Positions 29,223-38,379 of a stretch of DNA of 38,628 bases are shown here, piece by piece. Source of the stretch: an uncultured Bacilli bacterium (GTDB lineage Bacteria > Bacillota_I > Bacilli_A > RFN20 > CAG-449). The translations under genes and the position numbers were made by a program. Every line of letters starts with the position of its first letter. Positions within the stretch are counted from its first letter, which is position 1. The notes under the pieces were generated by a model, which searched no databases, was not told where the DNA came from, and was given only the letters and a program-made list of their open reading frames with translations. The stretch spans positions 1 to 38,628 of the forward strand of contig CANRPC010000012.1 of NCBI GenBank assembly GCA_947632435.1, written 5' to 3'.

Positions 29223-30047
29223 TTATAAAGTTTTAAATTTTAATGATATATCAAGAGCTTTAACAGAATGAGTTAAAGCACCAATAGAAATAAAATCAAC
29301 ACCGATAGATGATACTTTTTTAATTCTATCAAGAGTCATATTTCCACTTGCTTCTAAAAGTTTTTTATGATTGTTCAAATCGACACATTTTTTCATTGCT
29401 TCATCTGACATATTATCGAGCATAATTATATCGCAATTAGTGTTATAAGCTTCTAAAAATTGTTCAATAGTTTCTACTTCAACCTCGATTTTACAATTAA
29501 CTTTTCCTTCGACAAGATTTATCGCGTTAGTAATAGAGCCTGCTGCTTCAATATGATTATCTTTAATTAAAACCATATCAGATAAAGAATATCGATGATT
29601 TTGACCTCCTCCAATAACTACTGCTAGTTTGTCAAGATAGCGAAAATTAGGCATTGTTTTTCTAGTATCTAATATTTTTGTATTTCCAACGCATGCTTTT
29701 ACACATTTGTTTGTCATGGTAGCTATTCCTGACATTCTTTGCATAATGTTTAAAGCTGTTCTTTCTCCTTTAAGTAAAGTTCTTGTATTACCATTTAAAG
29801 TTGCTAAGATATCACCTTTTTTAACCTCATCACCATCTTTGACATTCCAAGAAATAAATACATTTCCTCCTGCTAAATTGAAAACTTCTTCAGCTATTTT
29901 AATACCAGCAATAATCCCATCTTCTTTAGCGATAAATTTACCTTGTGAAATATGATCTTTAGAAATGATATTATCTGTTGTAATATCACCATTTGGCATA
30001 TCTTCTTGTAAAGCATTTTTTATTATTTTAATTATTTCTTCATTCAT
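29223..30047 (-). CDS. nadC: Nicotinate-nucleotide pyrophosphorylase (carboxylating)
   Basis: A 274-residue quinolinate phosphoribosyltransferase. It converts quinolinate and PRPP to nicotinate mononucleotide, CO2 and PPi. Motifs in order are MPNGDITTDNI, LKGERTALNIMQRMSGIAT, KILDTRKTMPNFRYLDKLAV (substrate Arg/Lys), GGGQNHRYSLSDMVLIKDNHI, VEVETIEQ, DIIMLDNM, LEASGNM and ISIGALTHSVKALDISLK. It is the last gene of the nad operon, 8 bases after nadB. Confidence 0.96.
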   Translation of the reverse strand: MNEEIIKIIKNALQEDMPNGDITTDNIISKDHISQGKFIAKEDGIIAGIKIAEEVFNLAGGNVFISWNVKDGDEVKKGDILATLNGNTRTLLKGERTALNIMQRMSGIATMTNKCVKACVGNTKILDTRKTMPNFRYLDKLAVVIGGGQNHRYSLSDMVLIKDNHIEAAGSITNAINLVEGKVNCKIEVEVETIEQFLEAYNTNCDIIMLDNMSDEAMKKCVDLNNHKKLLEASGNMTLDRIKKVSSIGVDFISIGALTHSVKALDISLKFKTL

Positions 30048-30055
30048 ACTACTAT

Positions 30056-31558
30056 TTAATCAATACGGAAATGTGATCCAATTGATTCTTTCCTTTCTAA
30101 AGCTTGATTAATAACGATTAAGGCTACTGTAACCATATTTAAGGTTTCATAATAATATCTTGATAAAACATTTATTTTTAAAAGATTTTTATAATGTTTT
30201 GTTAATATCTTTTTAGCCATTTCCAATCCATCTTTTGTTCTTACAATAAATACATAGCGTGACATTAATTCACGAGTTTCTTGACGAATATCTTTGAAAT
30301 TGTATTTCTTTTTAGCTAATTTCATATCTGGTAAAATAATATTTATTTTTTCACATTGATCTTTTGTTTTATTAATATCTTCTGCGACTCTTTTACCAAA
30401 AACAACACATTCTAATAAGGAATTAGATGCTAATCTATTAGCACCATGTACTCCAGTGAAAGCACATTCACCTACGGCATAGAGATTTTTTAAAGCAGTG
30501 CGGCCATATAAATCAACTTCAATTCCTCCACATAAAAAATGTTCTACAGGGACAACAGGTATTAAATCTTTGGTTATATCAATACCATAGTCTAAACAAT
30601 GTTTATATATTGTAGGAAATCTATTCTTAACAAAATCACTATCTTTATAAGTAATATCTAAATAAACATGGTCAGAAAATGTATCATACATTTCTCGATA
30701 TATAGATTGTGAAACTATATCACGAGGCGCTAATTCTTTTAAAGGTGTATATTTTTCCATAAAACGTTCACCTTCAATATTTTTTAAATAAGCACCTTCA
30801 CCTCTTACAGCTTCCGAAATTAAAAATTTTTGCCCCATCTTATCATCGTAAAATGCTGTCGGATGAAATTGAACAAATTCCATATCTTTTATTTTTAAAC
30901 CTAAGCGATATGCCATTGCAATACCATCACCACAATTAAATTTTTCATTCGTGGTATTTTGATATATTGCTCCTATTCCACCTGTTGCAAGTACCACTTT
31001 ATTAGCTAAAATATATATTTCTTCATTTTGATGATTTATAACTATTGCCCCTTTTACTTCACCATCTTGATGTAATAATTCAATAGCCATTTCATTTTCA
31101 AAAACTTTAATATTTGTTCTTTGGTATAAAGTATTTCTTAAATCAGACATAATATGATTGCCTGTATCATCGCCACCAGCATGCAAAATTCGTCTCGATC
31201 TATGTCCACCTTCTAATGTTTTAATCAAATTTCCATCTTTATCAACATCAAATTTTACACCTAATGATATTAAATCTTTAAGAGCGTCATCAGCTTCATC
31301 AACAAGGATTCTTACAGCATTTTTATCATTAACATAGGAACCAGCTTTTAAAGTGTCTTCATAATGTTCATCTTTTTTTTCTTTTGAGGAATTTATTTCA
31401 CCTGCAATTCCACCTTGAGCAAGATTTGAAGAACCTTTATTTATTGCATCTTTTACGTAGATTCCAATTTTTAAATTTGAATCTAATTTTAAAGCAGTAT
31501 AAATTCCTGCTAAACCACCACCAAGAATTAATACATCATATTGTCTAATTTCTTTCAT
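30056..31558 (-). CDS. nadB: L-aspartate oxidase
   Basis: A 500-residue FAD enzyme that oxidises aspartate to iminoaspartate. The FAD site is LILGGGLAGIYTALKL, then SSNLAQGGIAG, RRILHAGGDDTGNHIM, VLATGGIGAIYQ, FVQFHPTAFYDD and SEAVRGEGAYLKN. The catalytic-like ELAPRDIVSQSIYREM, CGGIEVDLYGRT and GVHGANRLASNSLLECVVFG confirm NadB over other fumarate reductase relatives. It is slightly shorter than the usual 530 residues at the C-terminus. It is flanked by nadA upstream and nadC downstream. Confidence 0.95.
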   Translation of the reverse strand: MKEIRQYDVLILGGGLAGIYTALKLDSNLKIGIYVKDAINKGSSNLAQGGIAGEINSSKEKKDEHYEDTLKAGSYVNDKNAVRILVDEADDALKDLISLGVKFDVDKDGNLIKTLEGGHRSRRILHAGGDDTGNHIMSDLRNTLYQRTNIKVFENEMAIELLHQDGEVKGAIVINHQNEEIYILANKVVLATGGIGAIYQNTTNEKFNCGDGIAMAYRLGLKIKDMEFVQFHPTAFYDDKMGQKFLISEAVRGEGAYLKNIEGERFMEKYTPLKELAPRDIVSQSIYREMYDTFSDHVYLDITYKDSDFVKNRFPTIYKHCLDYGIDITKDLIPVVPVEHFLCGGIEVDLYGRTALKNLYAVGECAFTGVHGANRLASNSLLECVVFGKRVAEDINKTKDQCEKINIILPDMKLAKKKYNFKDIRQETRELMSRYVFIVRTKDGLEMAKKILTKHYKNLLKINVLSRYYYETLNMVTVALIVINQALERKESIGSHFRID

Positions 31559-31576
31559 ATTATAAAATCTCCAAAA

Positions 31577-32485
31577 CTATGATAACTCTAACATTCTATC
31601 TAAAGAAGTTTTAGCTTTTTTTATGATATCCTCAGATAAAATAACTTCGTTTTTTTCATTTTTTAAGGAATCATAAGCGTCTTCTAAAGTAATGCTTTTC
31701 ATATTGATACATCGGAAATTGGAAACTAAAGGATAAAATTTTTTGTTAGGAGAAGCTTTTTCCATCGCATAAATAACTCCTGATTCTGTTCCTACGATAA
31801 ATTCGCTAGCATTATCTTGAATAGTATAGTCAAGCATTTGTTTTGTTGAACCAACAAAATCAGCTTCTTTTATAATTTCGTAAGGGCATTCTGGATGTAC
31901 GATAAATTTTGCATTAGGATGTTCTTTTTTGGCTTTTGCTACTTGATTTAAACTAACGTAATTATGAATCGGACAAAAACCATTCCAAAGTTCCATATTA
32001 TATCCATAAGTTTTATTGGCATAATTACCTAAATTTTTATCTGGTATATAAAGTATTTTTTTATTTAAATCAGCATAATGTTTAATAATTTTTAAAGCAT
32101 TTGTAGAAGTAACACATACATCTGAAAGTGCTTTAACAGAGGCGTAAGTATTAACATAAGAAATAATTATAGTGTCGGGATTAAGTTTTTTATAATTAAT
32201 TAAATCTCTTTCACTAATATATTTAGCCATAAAACAACTCGCAATATTGTTTGCCATTAAAACTTTTTTATTTGGTGATAAAATTTTTGCTGTTTCACCC
32301 ATAAAATCAACACCACAAAAAAGAATTATATCGGCATTAGTTTTGCAAGCAATTTTACTTAAGCCTAAAGAATCACCGACAAAATCAGCAATTTCTTGAA
32401 TTTCTTTATTTGTATAATAATGAGCGAGTATAATTGCATTCTTTTCTTTAGCTAATTTCTTAATTTTTTCTTGTAATATATTCAT
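31577..32485 (-). CDS. nadA: Quinolinate synthase A
   Basis: A 302-residue [4Fe-4S] enzyme that condenses iminoaspartate with dihydroxyacetone phosphate to quinolinate. Motifs are AIILAHYYTNKEIQEIADFVGDS, LFCGVDFMGETAKIL, VCVTSTNA, IPDKNLG, GFCPIHNYVS, VHPECPYEI and VGTESGVIYAM; the conserved cysteines are in CGVDFMGE, GFCPIH and, by the family pattern, a C-terminal one in NFRCINM. The ATG at 32485 was chosen because GAAGGT lies just before it, rather than the earlier frame start at 32518. It is the first gene of nadA-nadB-nadC. Confidence 0.95.
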   Translation of the reverse strand: MNILQEKIKKLAKEKNAIILAHYYTNKEIQEIADFVGDSLGLSKIACKTNADIILFCGVDFMGETAKILSPNKKVLMANNIASCFMAKYISERDLINYKKLNPDTIIISYVNTYASVKALSDVCVTSTNALKIIKHYADLNKKILYIPDKNLGNYANKTYGYNMELWNGFCPIHNYVSLNQVAKAKKEHPNAKFIVHPECPYEIIKEADFVGSTKQMLDYTIQDNASEFIVGTESGVIYAMEKASPNKKFYPLVSNFRCINMKSITLEDAYDSLKNEKNEVILSEDIIKKAKTSLDRMLELS

Positions 32486-32508
32486 GATATTACCTTCTTT
32501 TCTTAATG

Positions 32509-32537
32509 ATTTTAGCATAATTATAATGTTAATTCAA
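32509..32537 (-). promoter_or_regulatory. nadABC promoter
   Basis: TTGAAT (32532-32537) and TAAAAT (32509-32514) are spaced 17 bases on the minus strand. This leaves a short leader before the nadA ATG at 32485. No clear NiaR-type operator was recognised. Confidence 0.6.
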
Positions 32538-32628
32538 TTAATTGATTAATAATAATATAGTAAAAGAAAAGCTTATTGTTTTTAGACACTTTTAATTGAA
32601 TTCTCATAAAATTCTAGTTGTTTTATAA

Positions 32629-32657
32629 TCTCTAATTTCTAGAGAAATGAATTTCTC
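32629..32657. repeat. Overlapping inverted repeats upstream of the acyltransferase operon
   Basis: TCTCTA-ATTTC-TAGAGA and GAGAAAT-GA-ATTTCTC (32642-32657) overlap, so ATTTCTC-like half-sites alternate in orientation three times. The cluster lies about 80 bases before the plus-strand operon start and 95 bases before the nadA promoter. It is operator-like; no regulator is identified. Confidence 0.4.
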
Positions 32658-32737
32658 AAAACGTTCGACGATTTTTTTTAAAATTAGAGTGTATATATTA
32701 AATTTCATTGTTATGATAATAATGGAAAGGCTGATTT

Positions 32738-33514
32738 ATGGAAAAAATTATTTACTATCAAGATGAATTAAATGATGAATTTTCTAAAGCTAAAATTCAA
32801 GCAAAAAAGATTGATAAAAATTATAAGTATATCCATGAATCTTTTTTTAAAAAATTTACCCATTTTTTCTGGTATCGTATTGTTGCCTTCCCACTTGCAA
32901 AAATATATCTTTTTATTAAGTTTAATCACAAAATAGTTAATCGTAAAATTTTAAAAAAATTTAAAAATACTGGTTATTTTCTTTATGCAAATCACACTCA
33001 GCCAACCGCGGATGCTTTGATACCATCATTCGTGGCATTTCCAAAAGATACGTATGTCATTGTACATCCAAATAATGTATCAATGCCTTTTCTTGGAAAA
33101 ATAACTCCTTCTTTAGGTGCTTTACCATTACCAGATGATTTTATAGCTACTAAAAATTTTGTAAAAGCAATTGAAAGACGAATTGATGAAAAAAAATGCA
33201 TAATGATTTACCCTGAAGCTCATATTTGGCCTTATTATACGGGGATTAGAAATTTTCTTGATACATCTTTTCGATACCCAATTAAATATAATTGTCCAAC
33301 ATTTTGCTTTACTAATACTTATCAAAAAAGTAAAATTTTGCATCGATTAAAATTAATTACATATGTTGATGGGCCATTTTTTCCAAATAAAGATTTGTCG
33401 ATAGAAAAACAAAGAATAGATTTAAGAAATCAAGTTTATGAAACAATGTGTTCTAGAAGCAAATTAAGTTACGTAAATAAAATTATTTATAAGAAAGGGG
33501 AAATAGATGATTAA
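32738..33514 (+). CDS. Acyltransferase-like protein of the membrane-lipid operon
   Basis: A 258-residue PlsC-like (LPLAT) protein with one or two hydrophobic segments at about residues 44-70. The catalytic box is YANHTQPTADALIP: His and Asp are separated by five residues instead of the four of the usual NH-x4-D. MIYPEAHIWPYYTGIRNF replaces the FPEGTRS motif. YVIVHPNNVSMPFLGKITPSLGALPLPDD resembles acceptor-binding parts of the family. Acyl transfer to a lipid or lysophospholipid is expected, but the altered spacing makes the substrate uncertain. AATGGAAAGG precedes the ATG. It overlaps the next gene by 8 bases. Confidence 0.75.
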   Translation: MEKIIYYQDELNDEFSKAKIQAKKIDKNYKYIHESFFKKFTHFFWYRIVAFPLAKIYLFIKFNHKIVNRKILKKFKNTGYFLYANHTQPTADALIPSFVAFPKDTYVIVHPNNVSMPFLGKITPSLGALPLPDDFIATKNFVKAIERRIDEKKCIMIYPEAHIWPYYTGIRNFLDTSFRYPIKYNCPTFCFTNTYQKSKILHRLKLITYVDGPFFPNKDLSIEKQRIDLRNQVYETMCSRSKLSYVNKIIYKKGEIDD

Positions 33515-34355
33515 TATTCTTTTTTCAGGAAATGAAAAGGTTATTGATGGAGTTATTACAACATTATTATCAATTTTGAAACGTTCTTCATTAAAAGAAC
33601 CATTGAATGTGTATTTACTTACAATGGACGTATCTCATCTAAAAGATACTTATAAACCAATATCTGATGAACAAGTAAAATTTGTTGAAAAAATGTTAAA
33701 AGAATACAATCCTCAACACCAAATAACAAAAATTGATGTAACAAATTTATATATGCAAGAATTTTCTTCCTGCCCTAATGAACAATGTTATTGTTCGCCT
33801 TATACTTTATTAAGATTATTTGCTGATTTATTGAATTTGCCTGATAAAATTTTGTACTTGGATATTGACATTTTATTTAATCGTGATATCAGACTTTTAT
33901 ATGAAATCGATGTTTCTAAAGTCGAATATGCCGCGGCTAATGATCATTATGGGAAATACTTAATTAACCCTTTCTATATAAATGCAGGTGTATTGCTATT
34001 TAATATGAAAATGTGCAAGGAAACTAATATATTTAAAAAAGCAAGAGAATTAATTAAAACAAAAAAACTTATTTTCGCGGATCAAAGTGCATTAATAAGA
34101 TCTACGACAAAAAAGAAATTAATTTCTCAAAAATTTAATGATCAAAAATTTCTTCATAAACACACTGTGGTAAGACATTTTTCAAAAAGATTATTTTATT
34201 TACCATTTCCCCATTTAGACAATATAAAACAATGGGAGGTAAGTAAAGTTCATAAAGTATTTAAATATTATGTTTTTGATGACATTTTATATGAATATAT
34301 TTATTTGAGAAAAAAATTAGATAATTTATTAAAAGGAGATTTAAAAGATGAATAA
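33507..34355 (+). CDS. Family 8 glycosyltransferase
   Basis: A 282-residue GT8-type enzyme that uses a nucleotide sugar. Motifs are MINILFSGNEKVIDGV, the metal-binding DxD in ILYLDIDILFNRDI, FYINAGVLLFNM, and ADQSALIR. It keeps a retaining GT-A fold and ends with a basic tail. GGGG-rich AAGAAAGGGG lies before the ATG. It overlaps the preceding acyltransferase gene and the following fusion gene by 8 bases each, so all three are tightly coupled. The acceptor is probably a membrane lipid, judged from the context. Confidence 0.88.
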   Translation: MINILFSGNEKVIDGVITTLLSILKRSSLKEPLNVYLLTMDVSHLKDTYKPISDEQVKFVEKMLKEYNPQHQITKIDVTNLYMQEFSSCPNEQCYCSPYTLLRLFADLLNLPDKILYLDIDILFNRDIRLLYEIDVSKVEYAAANDHYGKYLINPFYINAGVLLFNMKMCKETNIFKKARELIKTKKLIFADQSALIRSTTKKKLISQKFNDQKFLHKHTVVRHFSKRLFYLPFPHLDNIKQWEVSKVHKVFKYYVFDDILYEYIYLRKKLDNLLKGDLKDE

Positions 34356-36120
34356 TGAAATAATACCAATTTTTTATGCTTGTGATGATAATTTTGTAAA
34401 ATATACAATTGTATCATTAAAATCAATGATAGAGAATGCTTCGAAAAATCATAATTATCATGTATATATATTAAATACAGGTATATCTGAAAAAATGCAA
34501 AAAGTTGTTTTAGATATGCAAAATGATGATTTTACAATTGAATTTGTCGATGTTAAAAATTATTTAATTTCTATCAATGATAAATTACCAATTCGTGATT
34601 ATTATTCTAAAACAACTTATTATCGTCTTTTTATCGCAGAAATGTTTCAAGAATATAATAAAGCAATTTATATTGATAGTGACACAATAGTTTTAGGTGA
34701 CATTTATGAATTATATTCTAATGATTTAAAAGATAATTATGTAGGTGGATGTCATGAACAAGCAATGGTTCAAGTGGATACTTATGGTGAATATGTTGAA
34801 AAAGTAATTGGTATTGATCGTAATAAATTTTTCAATGCTGGTTTAATATTAATAAATTGTGATCAATTTCGTAAAAATAAAGTATTAGATCAATTTATTG
34901 ATTTATTGCATGTTTACACTTTTGTTGTTACCCAAGATGAAGATTATTTAAATTTAATTTGTAAAGATAAAGTATTATTTATTGATCAAGGTTGGAATGT
35001 TGAAGTTTTTGGTAAAATTCCTGTTAGTGATTCTGAGATTAAAATGCTTCATTATATCATGGTTTCAAAACCATGGCATTATAAAGATTGCCGTTATGCT
35101 GACAAATTTTGGAAATATGCTAAAATGACACCAGTTTATGATGAAATTATACAAGTTTTAAATGCTTATACTGATGAAGAAAGAGAAAATGATATAGCTT
35201 CTTGTGATAGACTATTAGAAACAGCATTAAGAGAAACTAATCGTGAAGATAATTATTTAAATTCTATAAAAAAAAATATTGGAAAATCAAAAGAACGTTT
35301 AGCCATTATTAAAAAAATTGCTAAATTTGAAGAAGAAGGGCGTTTTGAAGAAGATGTTGAAGAAGATCCTCCAGCAAAAATGTTGATGCCTGAAGAAATA
35401 GATTATTTAAGAAAAAAATTTTTTTCTAAATTAAAAACAAAATTTGCTTTTAAAGTTGCACGAAAATTTTTAAATCATATTACAGAAACAAAAAAAATGA
35501 TTGTCAAAGATATAATTGGACTTGAAAATATTAATAGTCTTGAAAGTGGAGCGATAATTACTTGTAATCATTTTAATGCTTTTGATAGTTTTGCCATACA
35601 ATTAGTATATGAAAAATCAAAACAAAAAAAGCGTAAATTTTATCGTGTCATAAGAGAAGGTAATTATACTAATTTTCCAGGATTTTATGGCTTTTTAATG
35701 AAAAATTGCAATACTTTGCCTTTATCAAGTAATTATAAAACATTGCAAAAATTTATTAAAGCAACAGATAAATTATTACAAGATGGAAATTTTGTTTTAG
35801 TTTATCCCGAACAAAGTATGTGGTGGAATTATCGTAAACCTAAACCATTACAAGATGGTGCATTTAAATTTGCTAGTAGAAATAACGTTCCAGTTTTACC
35901 ATGTTTTATAACAATGCAAGATAGTGATATTTTAGGAGATGATGGATTTTATATACAAGAATATACAATACATGTAAGTAAACCTATTTATCCTGATCCT
36001 TCTTTATCAAGAAATGAAAATATTGATTTACTTAAAGAAAAAAATTACGAAGAATGGAAGAGAATTTATGAAGAAACATATGGACTTCCATTACGTTATA
36101 CAACTAAAACACAAAATTAA
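34348..36120 (+). CDS. GT8 glycosyltransferase fused to a PlsC-type acyltransferase
   Basis: A 590-residue two-domain protein. The first 290 residues form a GT8 glycosyltransferase with IPIFYACDDNFVKY, the DxD in IYIDSDTIVLGDIY, FNAGLILINCDQF, TQDEDYLN and HYIMVSKPWHY. A charged linker (about 290-350) follows. The last 240 residues form a PlsC domain with TCNHFNAFDSF (canonical H-x4-D) and VYPEQSMWWNYRKPKPL, then PVLPCFITM. It would add a sugar and an acyl chain to a common intermediate, so a glycolipid is the likely product. AAAGGAG precedes the ATG, inside the preceding gene's end. Confidence 0.85.
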   Translation: MNNEIIPIFYACDDNFVKYTIVSLKSMIENASKNHNYHVYILNTGISEKMQKVVLDMQNDDFTIEFVDVKNYLISINDKLPIRDYYSKTTYYRLFIAEMFQEYNKAIYIDSDTIVLGDIYELYSNDLKDNYVGGCHEQAMVQVDTYGEYVEKVIGIDRNKFFNAGLILINCDQFRKNKVLDQFIDLLHVYTFVVTQDEDYLNLICKDKVLFIDQGWNVEVFGKIPVSDSEIKMLHYIMVSKPWHYKDCRYADKFWKYAKMTPVYDEIIQVLNAYTDEERENDIASCDRLLETALRETNREDNYLNSIKKNIGKSKERLAIIKKIAKFEEEGRFEEDVEEDPPAKMLMPEEIDYLRKKFFSKLKTKFAFKVARKFLNHITETKKMIVKDIIGLENINSLESGAIITCNHFNAFDSFAIQLVYEKSKQKKRKFYRVIREGNYTNFPGFYGFLMKNCNTLPLSSNYKTLQKFIKATDKLLQDGNFVLVYPEQSMWWNYRKPKPLQDGAFKFASRNNVPVLPCFITMQDSDILGDDGFYIQEYTIHVSKPIYPDPSLSRNENIDLLKEKNYEEWKRIYEETYGLPLRYTTKTQN

Positions 36121-36167
36121 TTTACATTTACAAATATTAGTTTTATGATTCTATGTAGGTAAGTTAT

Positions 36168-36983
36168 ATGATTTTAAGCATTATCTTTTTATTAATAAGT
36201 TTAATTTTAAGCGTTTTATTTTCGCTTATTACCTATACATATAGTATATGGTTTGTAGTTTTATTTGTTTGTTTGATACCTTTTTATTATTTAATTATTT
36301 TTGGAATATATATTGTTTTTTTGTTCTTTGCAACTTTATTTATTTCTAAAAAAAAGGCAATCAAAAAACCATCAAAGTTTGCCTATAATGTCATAAAAGA
36401 AAGCCTTGTTCAAGTTTTTTTGGTCTTAAATGTTCAAATTCATTTTATTGATAATGGTTTATTAAAAAACAATCAATTATATTTATTTGTTTCTAATCAT
36501 ATTTCAAATTACGACCCTTTAGTAATGATTTACGCTTTGAAAAAAAGGCGTTTAATATGTGTTACTAAACCTGAAAATTATAATATTCCTATTGCAGGTG
36601 GTTTGATGCATAAAGCAGGTTTTATTAGCATTAATAGAACTAATGCTTTTAAAGCTTTAGAATCTATAAATAAAGCAGCAGAAACATTAGATAAACATTA
36701 TGGCGACATTTTAATTTTTCCAGAAGGTACAAGAAACAAAAATAAAACTAATTTGCCGTTTCATGCTGGATCATTTAAAATTTGCTACAAAGCAAATGTT
36801 CCTATTGCAATTTGCTCTATAAAAAACACTGAATTAATAAAGAAAAATTTGCCATTTAAAAGAACACATGTATATTTTGAAATTTTAAAAGTTATTGAAC
36901 CAGAGGACTTTAATAATCAAAATACAGTTCAATTAGCTGAATTTTGTCAAAAATTAATATATAATCATTTAGATGAAAAATAA
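36168..36983 (+). CDS. PlsC-like 1-acylglycerol-3-phosphate acyltransferase
   Basis: A 271-residue LPLAT-family enzyme. Two hydrophobic helices occupy residues 1-57. The catalytic box VSNHISNYDP (H-x4-D) and the glycerol-phosphate motif IFPEGTRNKNKT are standard, with GGLMHKAGFISINR between them. It probably acylates lysophosphatidate or a related lipid. It lies 47 bases after the fusion gene and 25 bases before the lipid kinase, which fits one operon. A plsC-type name would be reasonable, but an additional paralogue elsewhere could be the main enzyme. Confidence 0.88.
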   Translation: MILSIIFLLISLILSVLFSLITYTYSIWFVVLFVCLIPFYYLIIFGIYIVFLFFATLFISKKKAIKKPSKFAYNVIKESLVQVFLVLNVQIHFIDNGLLKNNQLYLFVSNHISNYDPLVMIYALKKRRLICVTKPENYNIPIAGGLMHKAGFISINRTNAFKALESINKAAETLDKHYGDILIFPEGTRNKNKTNLPFHAGSFKICYKANVPIAICSIKNTELIKKNLPFKRTHVYFEILKVIEPEDFNNQNTVQLAEFCQKLIYNHLDEK

Positions 36984-37008
36984 AAAATTTAGTAAAGGAA
37001 AATAAAAT

Positions 37009-37854
37009 ATGACGTACTTATTATTTAATCCAATATCTAATAATAATACTGGAACTAGTATTAAAAAAAAGGCCAAAATAGATATAGCCAAAACATTTTC
37101 AAACATTGAAGAAATTAATGTTTTAGACTTAAATGTAAATGATTTTTTAGCAAAATTAAAAGAAGAAGATGATATCATTTTAGTTGGTGGAGATGGCACA
37201 TTAAATCATTTTGTAAATGTGGTATATCCATTAAAATTGAAAAACAAAATGTATCTATATAAAGCTGGAATAGGTAATGATTTTTTAAATGATGTAAATA
37301 AAGAAAATGCTCAAATAATACTTTTAAATCCATATTTACAAAAATTACCTAAAGTCACAATAAATGGAAAAACTAGCTATTATATTAATGGAATTGGCTA
37401 TGGTATAGATGGTGAAGTTTGTGTAATAGCGGATAAATTAAAAGATAAAGGAAAAAAGAAAATTAATTATACAACAATAGCTATTAAATTATTATTATTT
37501 AAATTTCATTGTCCTGATGCCATAGTTATTGTCGATGGCAAAGAATATGCTTATAAAAAAGTATGGCTTGCATCTGCAATGTTTGGAAGATTTTATGGAG
37601 GCGGTATGATGATGGCTCCTAATCAAGATCGTTTAGGTGATAGTATTTCTTTAGCGATAGCTCACGATGCATCTAGATTAAGATTATTAACAATTTTTCC
37701 AAAAATTTTTAAAGGAGAACATGTAAAATATAAAAAGATTATTGAAATAAAAAAATGTAAAAAATTAGAAGTTCGTTTTTCTTCACCATGTGCTTTGCAA
37801 ATTGATGGAGAAGTGGTTAAAAATGTTACTTCTTATGTTGCAGAAATTGAATAG
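37009..37854 (+). CDS. Diacylglycerol kinase-family lipid kinase
   Basis: A 281-residue DagK_cat protein. LLFNPISNNNTG begins the domain; VGGDGTLNHFVN is the nucleotide-binding GGDGT motif, AGIGNDFLNDV and GIGYGIDGEV follow, and SAMFGRFYGGGMMMAP and LQIDGE complete the C-terminal half. Family members phosphorylate diacylglycerol or related lipids such as undecaprenol or ceramide; the specificity is not visible. AAAGGAAA precedes the ATG. It ends the lipid operon at the terminator 37865-37912. Confidence 0.9.
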   Translation: MTYLLFNPISNNNTGTSIKKKAKIDIAKTFSNIEEINVLDLNVNDFLAKLKEEDDIILVGGDGTLNHFVNVVYPLKLKNKMYLYKAGIGNDFLNDVNKENAQIILLNPYLQKLPKVTINGKTSYYINGIGYGIDGEVCVIADKLKDKGKKKINYTTIAIKLLLFKFHCPDAIVIVDGKEYAYKKVWLASAMFGRFYGGGMMMAPNQDRLGDSISLAIAHDASRLRLLTIFPKIFKGEHVKYKKIIEIKKCKKLEVRFSSPCALQIDGEVVKNVTSYVAEIE

Positions 37855-37920: not shown

Positions 37921-38379
37921 TTATTTAATTTTTATTTTAAATACTGCCTTTTCAATCATTTCATCATTTGCTTTTATTAAAGGCATATGCAAATCATTTG
38001 GCCAAACTAAAGCAAATTGATGGTCGTGTAAATATATTATTCCATCTAATTCACCTTTATAATTTGCTTTATCTTTTTTTTCATCATAAGGAAGAGTTAC
38101 TTCAATACCATAACGAGCTTTATCGACATAGCCCATTCCTTCTTTTCCTTTAATAACTAATTGTAAATCTAAATATTTTTCATGACTTTCAAGTTTACAA
38201 TCCTCAATATTTTTTCCTACATAACTTGAACGATTAACCCAAAGATTATCTCCATCAATAATAGTTTTTCCTTCTGGTAAGTTTAATAAATCATGAGTTT
38301 TAATAAATTCAAAAGCTTTATTAATATTTTCGTTTTCAAATTTTACAGCAAAAAAATCTTCTACTTTGCCGATTATCAT
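37921..38379 (-). CDS. YhcH/YjgK/YiaL family protein (DUF386)
   Basis: A 152-residue cupin-like protein. ESHEKYLDLQLVIKGKEGMGY carries the family's conserved H and E residues, and FALVWPNDLHMPLI its C-terminal metal-binding His. Family members accompany sialic acid and other sugar catabolism, where they are thought to act as sugar-anomer or small hydrolytic enzymes. It is alone here, 42 bases from the lipid operon terminator, with GAAGGAGGCTATC before the ATG. No sialic acid genes are visible within the window. Confidence 0.87.
   Translation of the reverse strand: MIIGKVEDFFAVKFENENINKAFEFIKTHDLLNLPEGKTIIDGDNLWVNRSSYVGKNIEDCKLESHEKYLDLQLVIKGKEGMGYVDKARYGIEVTLPYDEKKDKANYKGELDGIIYLHDHQFALVWPNDLHMPLIKANDEMIEKAVFKIKIK

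Follow-up and report, generated by a model that had tools for sequence, protein, structure and literature searches.

A conserved cassette pairing GT8 glycosyltransferases with LPLAT-type acyltransferases, one pair fused, and its possible role in glycolipid acylation

We analysed a window of 38,628 nucleotides from an uncultured Bacilli bacterium (contig CANRPC010000012.1) containing five genes, here labelled g1 to g5, which lie on the forward strand at positions 32738-37854. The first three of these form a conserved cassette, inherited as a unit, that encodes two glycosyltransferase family 8 (GT8) enzymes and two acyltransferases of the LPLAT type, with one GT8 and one acyltransferase fused in a single chain. 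The cassette is real, conserved and biochemically coherent. As to its function we favour, tentatively and with a little less than even confidence, the reading that g1-g2-g3 is an accessory cassette for glycolipid elaboration which would make an acylated oligoglycosyl-diacylglycerol. A preliminary description of this DNA had assigned all five genes to one glycolipid operon. Its basis, namely five same-strand genes, two overlaps of 8 bases and the domain assignments, was recovered in full from open reading frames (ORFs) and Pfam matches. The features are as follows.

32738-33514, forward strand: g1, LPLAT-fold acyltransferase of the PE-x3-W type (Pfam PF01553, Acyltransferase, 25 bits; cut-off 23)
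33507-33514, forward strand: 8-base overlap of the g1 end and the g2 start (ORF coordinates)
33507-34355, forward strand: g2, GT8 glycosyltransferase (PF01501, 53.7 bits; cut-off 24.3)
34348-34355, forward strand: 8-base overlap of the g2 end and the g3 start (ORF coordinates)
34348-36120, forward strand: g3, GT8-acyltransferase fusion of 590 amino acids
34366-35085, forward strand: g3 GT8 domain, residues 7-246 (Pfam, 144.9 bits; cut-off 24.3)
35515-35910, forward strand: g3 acyltransferase domain core, residues 390-521 (Pfam, 46.8 bits; cut-off 23)
36168-36983, forward strand: g4, classical PlsC-type acyltransferase (PF01553, 86 bits; motifs NHISNYD and FPEGTRN)
37009-37854, forward strand: g5, YegS/BmrU-type lipid (diacylglycerol) kinase (YegS_C 59.7 bits, DAGK_cat 32.4 bits)
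32519-32737, no strand: A+T-rich intergenic region between a divergent upstream gene (reverse strand) and g1 (forward strand)

A scan of genome contigs with g3 returned 345 pattern matches, of which 289 were confirmed as relatives and the best 80 (L004-L083) were kept. Ranking was by identity to the fusion, so the sample favours full-length copies, and the loci derive largely from metagenome-assembled genomes titled Lachnospiraceae, Oscillospiraceae, Ruminococcus or Clostridia; Roseburia faecis M72 (L022) and Lachnospiraceae AC2029 are the named strains among them. Because g1, g2 and g3 recur in the same order in 75 of the 80 related loci, the conserved order is not attributable to chance; four further loci (L010, L021, L028 and L080) have g3 but lack g1 and g2, and the last (L078) is cut by a contig end. 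Neighbouring genes overlap, with starts assigned by script, at the g1/g2 junction in 62 of the 75 loci (exactly 8 bases in 34) and at the g2/g3 junction in 47 (8 bases in 12 and 4 bases in 23), and at both 8-base overlaps of the window a purine-rich stretch precedes the downstream ATG. Counted among the 47 is L018 (7161-9788), where g2 and g3 share one unbroken 875-amino-acid frame (GT8-GT8-acyltransferase) in which an internal GGAGGAGAAGATG may still start g3. Across genomes the cassette is a patchily distributed, accessory trait.

The GT8-acyltransferase fusion is real. In the window g3 is one unbroken 590-codon frame with a helical stretch joining the GT8 and acyltransferase domains, and the fusion is full length in 80 of 80 related loci, so an assembly or annotation error was rejected. 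The GT8-PlsC fusion of the preliminary description thus holds up rather than resolving to separate genes in all relatives, and less selected samples contain both forms. Among 98 genomes of the window's order, its own genome included, six carry the whole fusion (G000, G039, G024, G064, G093 and G063) and nine carry separate halves (G069, G058, G070, G072, G008, G086, G088, G013 and G014), the GT8 half being cut by contig ends in G072 and the halves lying on different contigs in G013 and G014. The unfused order is GT8-g1-g2-acyltransferase in G069, G058 and G070, and g1, g2, GT8, acyltransferase in G088; the halves neighbour each other in G008, G086 and G088, and likewise in G533, G547 and G675 from the Roseburia-family sample. 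In the family of the Roseburia genome a g3-like match (E <=1e-60) was present in 13 of 299 genomes, comprising seven full fusions, three with adjacent halves and three with a GT8-half match only, while the sample of the window's phylum gave 11 of 392 genomes, eight fused (one with an internal stop) and three separate. A tree of acyltransferase domains from 37 chosen rows, with L012 left untrimmed and long branches in five rows, has at least two changes between fused and split forms by its starred branches and four by parsimony. G024 has in addition a stand-alone 350-amino-acid copy of the g3 GT8 half between g2 and the fusion (L085:3288-4340), and in G684 a GT8-half match (35%) lies inside a 646-amino-acid frame, perhaps another fusion (C26:82596-83459).

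The distribution of g2 relative to g3 gives an indication of the order in which they may act. All nine genomes of the 98-genome sample that carry g2 orthologues of at least 50% identity also have g3, and no g2 orthologue was found in the genomes of the four g3-only loci, for which completeness is not given; two of these have no g2 match and two have weak matches, one at E 4e-5 in a 608-amino-acid frame and one at E 9e-4 in a frame of 601 amino acids. That g2 was found only with g3, while g3 also occurs without g2, suggests that g2 and g1 extend the product of g3.

Active-site residues were read from alignments of 96 g1 (cassette copies and some distant PE-x3-W relatives), 93 g2 and 86 g3 proteins, matches with poor coverage, an unusual length or stops inside the frame having been left out. 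In g1, motif I is N-H-x5-D (H86 and D92) and motif III is YPEAHIWPYYTGIR, of the PE-x3-W type, and N85, H86, P159, E160, W164 and R171 are invariant in 96 of 96. The unusual H-x5-D spacing pointed out in the preliminary description is real and inherited, the aspartate lying six residues past the histidine in 89 of the 96 homologues, a departure from the classical H-x4-D of PlsC. g2 is a GT8 enzyme by a PF01501 match above cut-off and a DXD motif (D119 and D121), which is invariant together with H224 in 93 of 93. The GT8 half of g3 combines PF01501 with DXD (DSD, residues 110-112) and a C-terminal H-x5-KPW (H235 and residues 241-243), with D110, D112, H235, K241, P242 and W243 present in 86 of 86. 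Its acyltransferase half contains N-H-x4-D (H408 and D413) and the motif YPEQSMWWNYRKPKP (E488, W492 and R496), these five residues being invariant in all 86 proteins. Motif III is PE-x3-W in both g1 and g3 instead of the classical PEGTR, and the TIGR00530 score of g3 is 32.7 bits (cut-off 102.95) with no listed match for g1, placing both outside the classical AGPAT/PlsC enzymes, which have a PEGTR motif III and score above the TIGR00530 cut-off.

Structural comparison of the g3 GT8 half found WbbM (6u4b; Z 31.9, root-mean-square deviation 2.1, 267 aligned, profile E 8.6e-36) and LgtC (1g9r; Z 27.3, root-mean-square deviation 3.1, 258 aligned, profile E 4.7e-31), both of which share with g3 the GT8 fold, the DXD motif and the H-x5-KPW spacing. 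These are enzymes of lipopolysaccharide or O-antigen synthesis; unlike g3 they have no acyltransferase, and LgtC has Q189 where g3 has E198. At window positions 34936-34944 (g3 residues 197-199) the sequence DED replaces the DQD of LgtC, resembling the Q189E LgtC mutant structure 1ss9, and the G064 homologue has DQD.

Two GT4 enzymes of this genome are probable glucosyl-diacylglycerol synthases by sequence, an alMGS-like protein (254.9 bits; cut-off 400) and an IagA/BgsA-DGS-like protein (439.8 bits; cut-off 460), both matched over nearly their full length. A glycolipid enzyme of the MGDG-synthase type was also considered and was discarded because MGDG_synth had no match in this genome. From the presence of the probable GT4 synthases we infer that the cassette elaborates a glycolipid and adds O-acyl groups to it, most likely acting on, or beside, existing glucosyl-diacylglycerols. 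The cell's GT4 enzymes would make alpha-glucosyl-diacylglycerols, to which the GT8 half of g3 would add an alpha-linked hexose from a uridine diphosphate (UDP)-sugar, and the acyltransferase half would attach a fatty acid in ester linkage to a sugar-headgroup hydroxyl, its catalytic residues presumably being the invariant H408 and the motif-III E488, as proposed for PatA. In excerpts of PMC9597891 a catalytic histidine and a separate acidic residue are proposed for both PatA and VexE, the His/Glu200 pair of PatA deriving from simulations. g2 and g1 would then repeat glycosylation and acylation on the g3 product, yielding a membrane oligoglycosyl-diacylglycerol that bears one or two additional acyl chains. 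In some lineages this glycolipid may further receive glycerol phosphate, outside the cell, from an OpgB-like enzyme encoded next to the cassette.

The OpgB-like enzyme, a member of the OpgB/LtaS superfamily, bears on the other product raised in the preliminary description, a glycolipid anchor of the lipoteichoic-acid type made by these genes. Fifteen of the 80 loci have an OpgB-like gene next to the cassette, immediately downstream and in the same orientation in 10, in a neighbour set built by taking the longest ORF, a rule that may select antisense frames. Sulfatase-family proteins account for 12 of 70 scanned downstream neighbours; three of the 15 genes were run against NCBIfam and gave phosphoglycerol transferase I as the best match, far below cut-off. 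Within the window's order three of 98 genomes have a strong OpgB-like match and a fourth has one at E 6e-4; G064, among the strong three, carries the gene divergently beside the cassette. However, only four of 50 carrier genomes have an OpgB-like match at E 1e-15, including the adjacent copy of L077, the other 49 carriers having been chosen without an adjacent OpgB-like gene, and the enzyme is optional to the cassette. No OpgB-like match was found in this genome, nor was an LtaS-type enzyme, the best PF00884 (Sulfatase) score being 19.4 bits against a cut-off of 25 in an assembly that is 98.13% complete, such that a miss is possible. With g4 and g5 in addition outside the g1-g2-g3 unit, we regard the lipoteichoic-type anchor as the least likely of the alternatives considered here. 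The product proposed in the preliminary description survives as an acylated glycolipid, the best reading of a conserved glycosyltransferase/acyltransferase partnership, and loses the lipoteichoic-like anchor for this organism.

Partner genes were also compared for PE-x3-W acyltransferases outside the cassette. Weaker acyltransferase matches of the window's order (L098-L112) have PE-x3-W in 15 of 15 cases, and L003, a second copy in this genome, has it too; 10 of these 16 acyltransferases have a GT2, GT4 or GT28 glycosyltransferase as their upstream or fused partner: GT2 in L099, L106, L108, L109 and L111 and, fused, in L100, GT4 in L107 and L110, and GT28 in L101 and L102. PEG[TS]R is found in 13 of 14 homologues of the classical g4 type, and a glycosyltransferase occurred among the tested neighbours of 0 of 10 such controls, the neighbours of L167 and L168 being taken by the next larger ORF and that of L163 by an ORF on the other strand. 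From five frames of about 660 amino acids four were fetched, and all four are GT4-acyltransferase fusions by Pfam, with the GT4 first in L172, L173 and L175 and the acyltransferase first in L174 (1074-3056), which contains FPEATLWPYYTKIR. For the GT4 half of L173 the best score is to alpha-monoglucosyl-diacylglycerol synthase (49.5 bits, far below the cut-off of 400), close to the scores of polysaccharide GT4s, and for that of L172 TuaC ranks first and IagA/BgsA next. The remark in the preliminary description that a sugar transferase and acyltransferase in one chain is uncommon is accordingly true in part, since acyltransferases are also fused to GT4s and a GT2 in the window's order. A more ambitious proposal is that PE-x3-W marks a separate class of glycosyltransferase-coupled LPLATs, and that two GT8 and LPLAT modules add two acyl-hexoses to give an undescribed tetra-acylated oligoglycosyl lipid in common gut Firmicutes, one that the OpgB-like enzyme would cap with glycerol phosphate in some lineages; we consider this possible, though doubtful.

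The same fusions bear on the order of the two reactions. Acylation might come first, the acyltransferase half acylating a UDP-sugar and the fused GT8 transferring the acylated sugar to lipid, with the fusion channelling the acyl-sugar nucleotide between them. VexE, of the LPLAT family, acylates UDP-N-acetylglucosamine at C-6 according to the excerpted text of PMC9597891, and fusion to an enzyme that uses UDP-sugars would fit the channelling of a shared substrate. This order would however require an LgtC-type GT8 pocket to accept an acylated donor, and it sits poorly both with the fusion of PE-x3-W acyltransferases to GT4 and GT2 enzymes and with halves that work apart in the split forms, making it unlikely in our estimation.

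Some of the glycosyltransferase partners raise the question of whether the acyltransferases cap a surface polysaccharide, as a capsule-type lipid terminus, rather than a diacylglycerol glycolipid. The GT2 partners score to PgaC/EpsU-like polysaccharide synthases, below cut-offs, and in L176 (3005-4792 and 4789-5856) and L177 (3524-5308) the ATPase of an ABC exporter is joined in one chain to a g2-like GT8, next to a gene for an ABC-2 permease, the fusion scanned in L125 being the same place as L176. Nevertheless, no polysaccharide polymerase or flippase was seen among the neighbour clusters recurring in at least three loci, the families of which were checked in part, and the largest recurring cluster by far is OpgB-like. 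A polysaccharide cap therefore seems improbable to us.

Returning to the elaboration and acylation of a diacylglycerol glycolipid, a number of observations weigh against it. g2 is without the C-terminal KPW after its conserved histidine, a VRHFSKRLFYLPF-type stretch taking its place in the 93-protein alignment. The conserved arginine in both acyltransferase motifs and a lysine in g3 might still bind phosphate, so that the acceptor may be a lysophospholipid. Six of the 16 PE-x3-W partners are not glycosyltransferases, being FakA (L098), LacI regulators (L103, L104 and L112), a NERD protein (L105) and, in the window's own genome, a divergent enolase (L003), and the counts of 10 and six come from one order, include some same-genus pairs and ignore kinship. 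The AlphaFold2 model of g1 (predicted local distance difference test 92.9, predicted template modelling score 0.90) has an LPLAT fold that is structurally nearer to PlsC (5kym; Z 16.3, root-mean-square deviation 4.3, 193 aligned) and GPAT1 (Z 14.8) than to the sugar acylators PatA (Z 11.2) and LpxM (Z 10.1), with 6-11% identity to PatA and LpxM over the aligned part. The model of g3 does not fix its domain arrangement (predicted template modelling score 0.57), and its fold search was filled by GT8 rows, the LPLAT fold comparison covering g1 only. A single-sequence search with g1 matched no solved structure, and a profile search of solved structures recovered PlsC 5kym at E 3.9e-5, two further matches at E 0.3 and 0.93 being taken as chance. 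The FakA-type fatty acid kinase gene of L098 (2634-3782) precedes its PE-x3-W acyltransferase.

The likeness of g1 to PlsC and GPAT1 also agrees with a route in which the GT8 enzymes make a glycosyl-glycerol or glycosyl-glycerol-phosphate and g1 and the g3 C-terminus add both fatty acids, assembly of the glycosyl-diacylglycerol thus proceeding inward from the headgroup. Two glycosyltransferases and two acyltransferases are present, as this would need, and LPLATs commonly acylate glycerol hydroxyls, but the g3-only loci (four of 80) have just one of the two acyltransferases nearby and the cell already has probable diacylglycerol glucosyltransferases. We give this route little chance, and the modification of a pre-existing glycolipid by g1-g2-g3 is still our preferred reading.

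The five-gene operon of the preliminary description divides into two units. g4 and g5 were not found beside the cassette in related loci, 67 of the 75 having at least 2 kb of downstream flank, and the sole g4/g5-type matches near cassettes, a single one each in L023 and L062 at distances of about 3 and 5 kb, share 25-26% identity. In eight of 14 loci fetched with g4 (L157, L158, L160, L161 and L163-L166) the g4 homologue instead has a g5 homologue next to it, with 45-51% identity to g5. The genomes with this pair include G001 and G002, of the window's genus and without the cassette, G024, where the cassette sits on another contig, and G013 and G014, which have separate g3 halves elsewhere. With g1-g2-g3 recurring without g4-g5 and the pair occurring on its own, a five-gene operon was rejected as a conserved unit. 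Used as a query in this genome at E 0.001, g4 matches only itself and the fusion, and despite its PEGTRN motif it falls below the TIGR00530 cut-off (89.5 against 102.95 bits). g4 and g5 probably serve ordinary phospholipid supply and are merely located downstream of the cassette, although with gaps of 47 bases between g3 and g4 and 25 bases between g4 and g5 all five genes are possibly co-transcribed in this genome.

The intergenic region upstream of g1 is presumed to contain the start of the cassette transcript, and promoter-like matches there were no commoner than in shuffles (55 against a mean of 52.9). The GC content of the cassette (24-26%) matches that of the window (25%), giving no compositional sign of recent transfer. 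The upstream flank (29223-32518, reverse strand) contains a block reading like nadA-nadB-nadC, named from translations without a family search, and the downstream flank (37921-38379, reverse strand) a YhcH/YjgK (DUF386) gene. DegV genes adjoin the cassette in five of the 80 loci, on both sides in L017 and L071; a link through these FakB-like proteins was given no weight, as five of 80 lacks a background frequency.

Among known systems PlsC (5kym), a 1-acyl-glycerol-3-phosphate acyltransferase, shares the LPLAT fold with g1 and the NH...D and PE motifs with g1 and g3, and differs in having PEGTR for their PE-x3-W. PatA, LpxL/LpxM and VexE are, like g1 and g3, members of the LPLAT superfamily, and VexE carries tetratricopeptide repeats in place of the glycosyltransferase domain of g3 (excerpts of PMC9597891). 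The alMGS/alDGS (IagA/BgsA) pathway makes glycosyl-diacylglycerols, in keeping with the proposed context and with the probable copies in this genome, but uses GT4 rather than GT8 enzymes and has no acylation step. Acyl-trihexosyl-diacylglycerol anchors are known chemically from Lactobacillus casei (Nakano and Fischer 1978, a title listed among the references of PMC11052126). They resemble the proposed product in class, although the bacteria differ. To our knowledge no acyltransferase has been assigned to these anchors. Searches of an open-licence library, judged by titles and abstract openings, gave no description of a GT8-PlsC fusion or of the g1-g2-g3 cassette, which does not prove that none exists.

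If the proposed function is correct, it would name genes for acylated glycolipids of gut and rumen Clostridia, cultured Roseburia included, and would provide a sequence signature predicting which 'PlsC-like' proteins act on sugars as opposed to lysophosphatidic acid. Host lectin and CD1 receptors might recognise acylated glycolipids as ligands, and the existence of isolates among the carriers, Roseburia faecis M72 for one, opens the prediction to direct testing.

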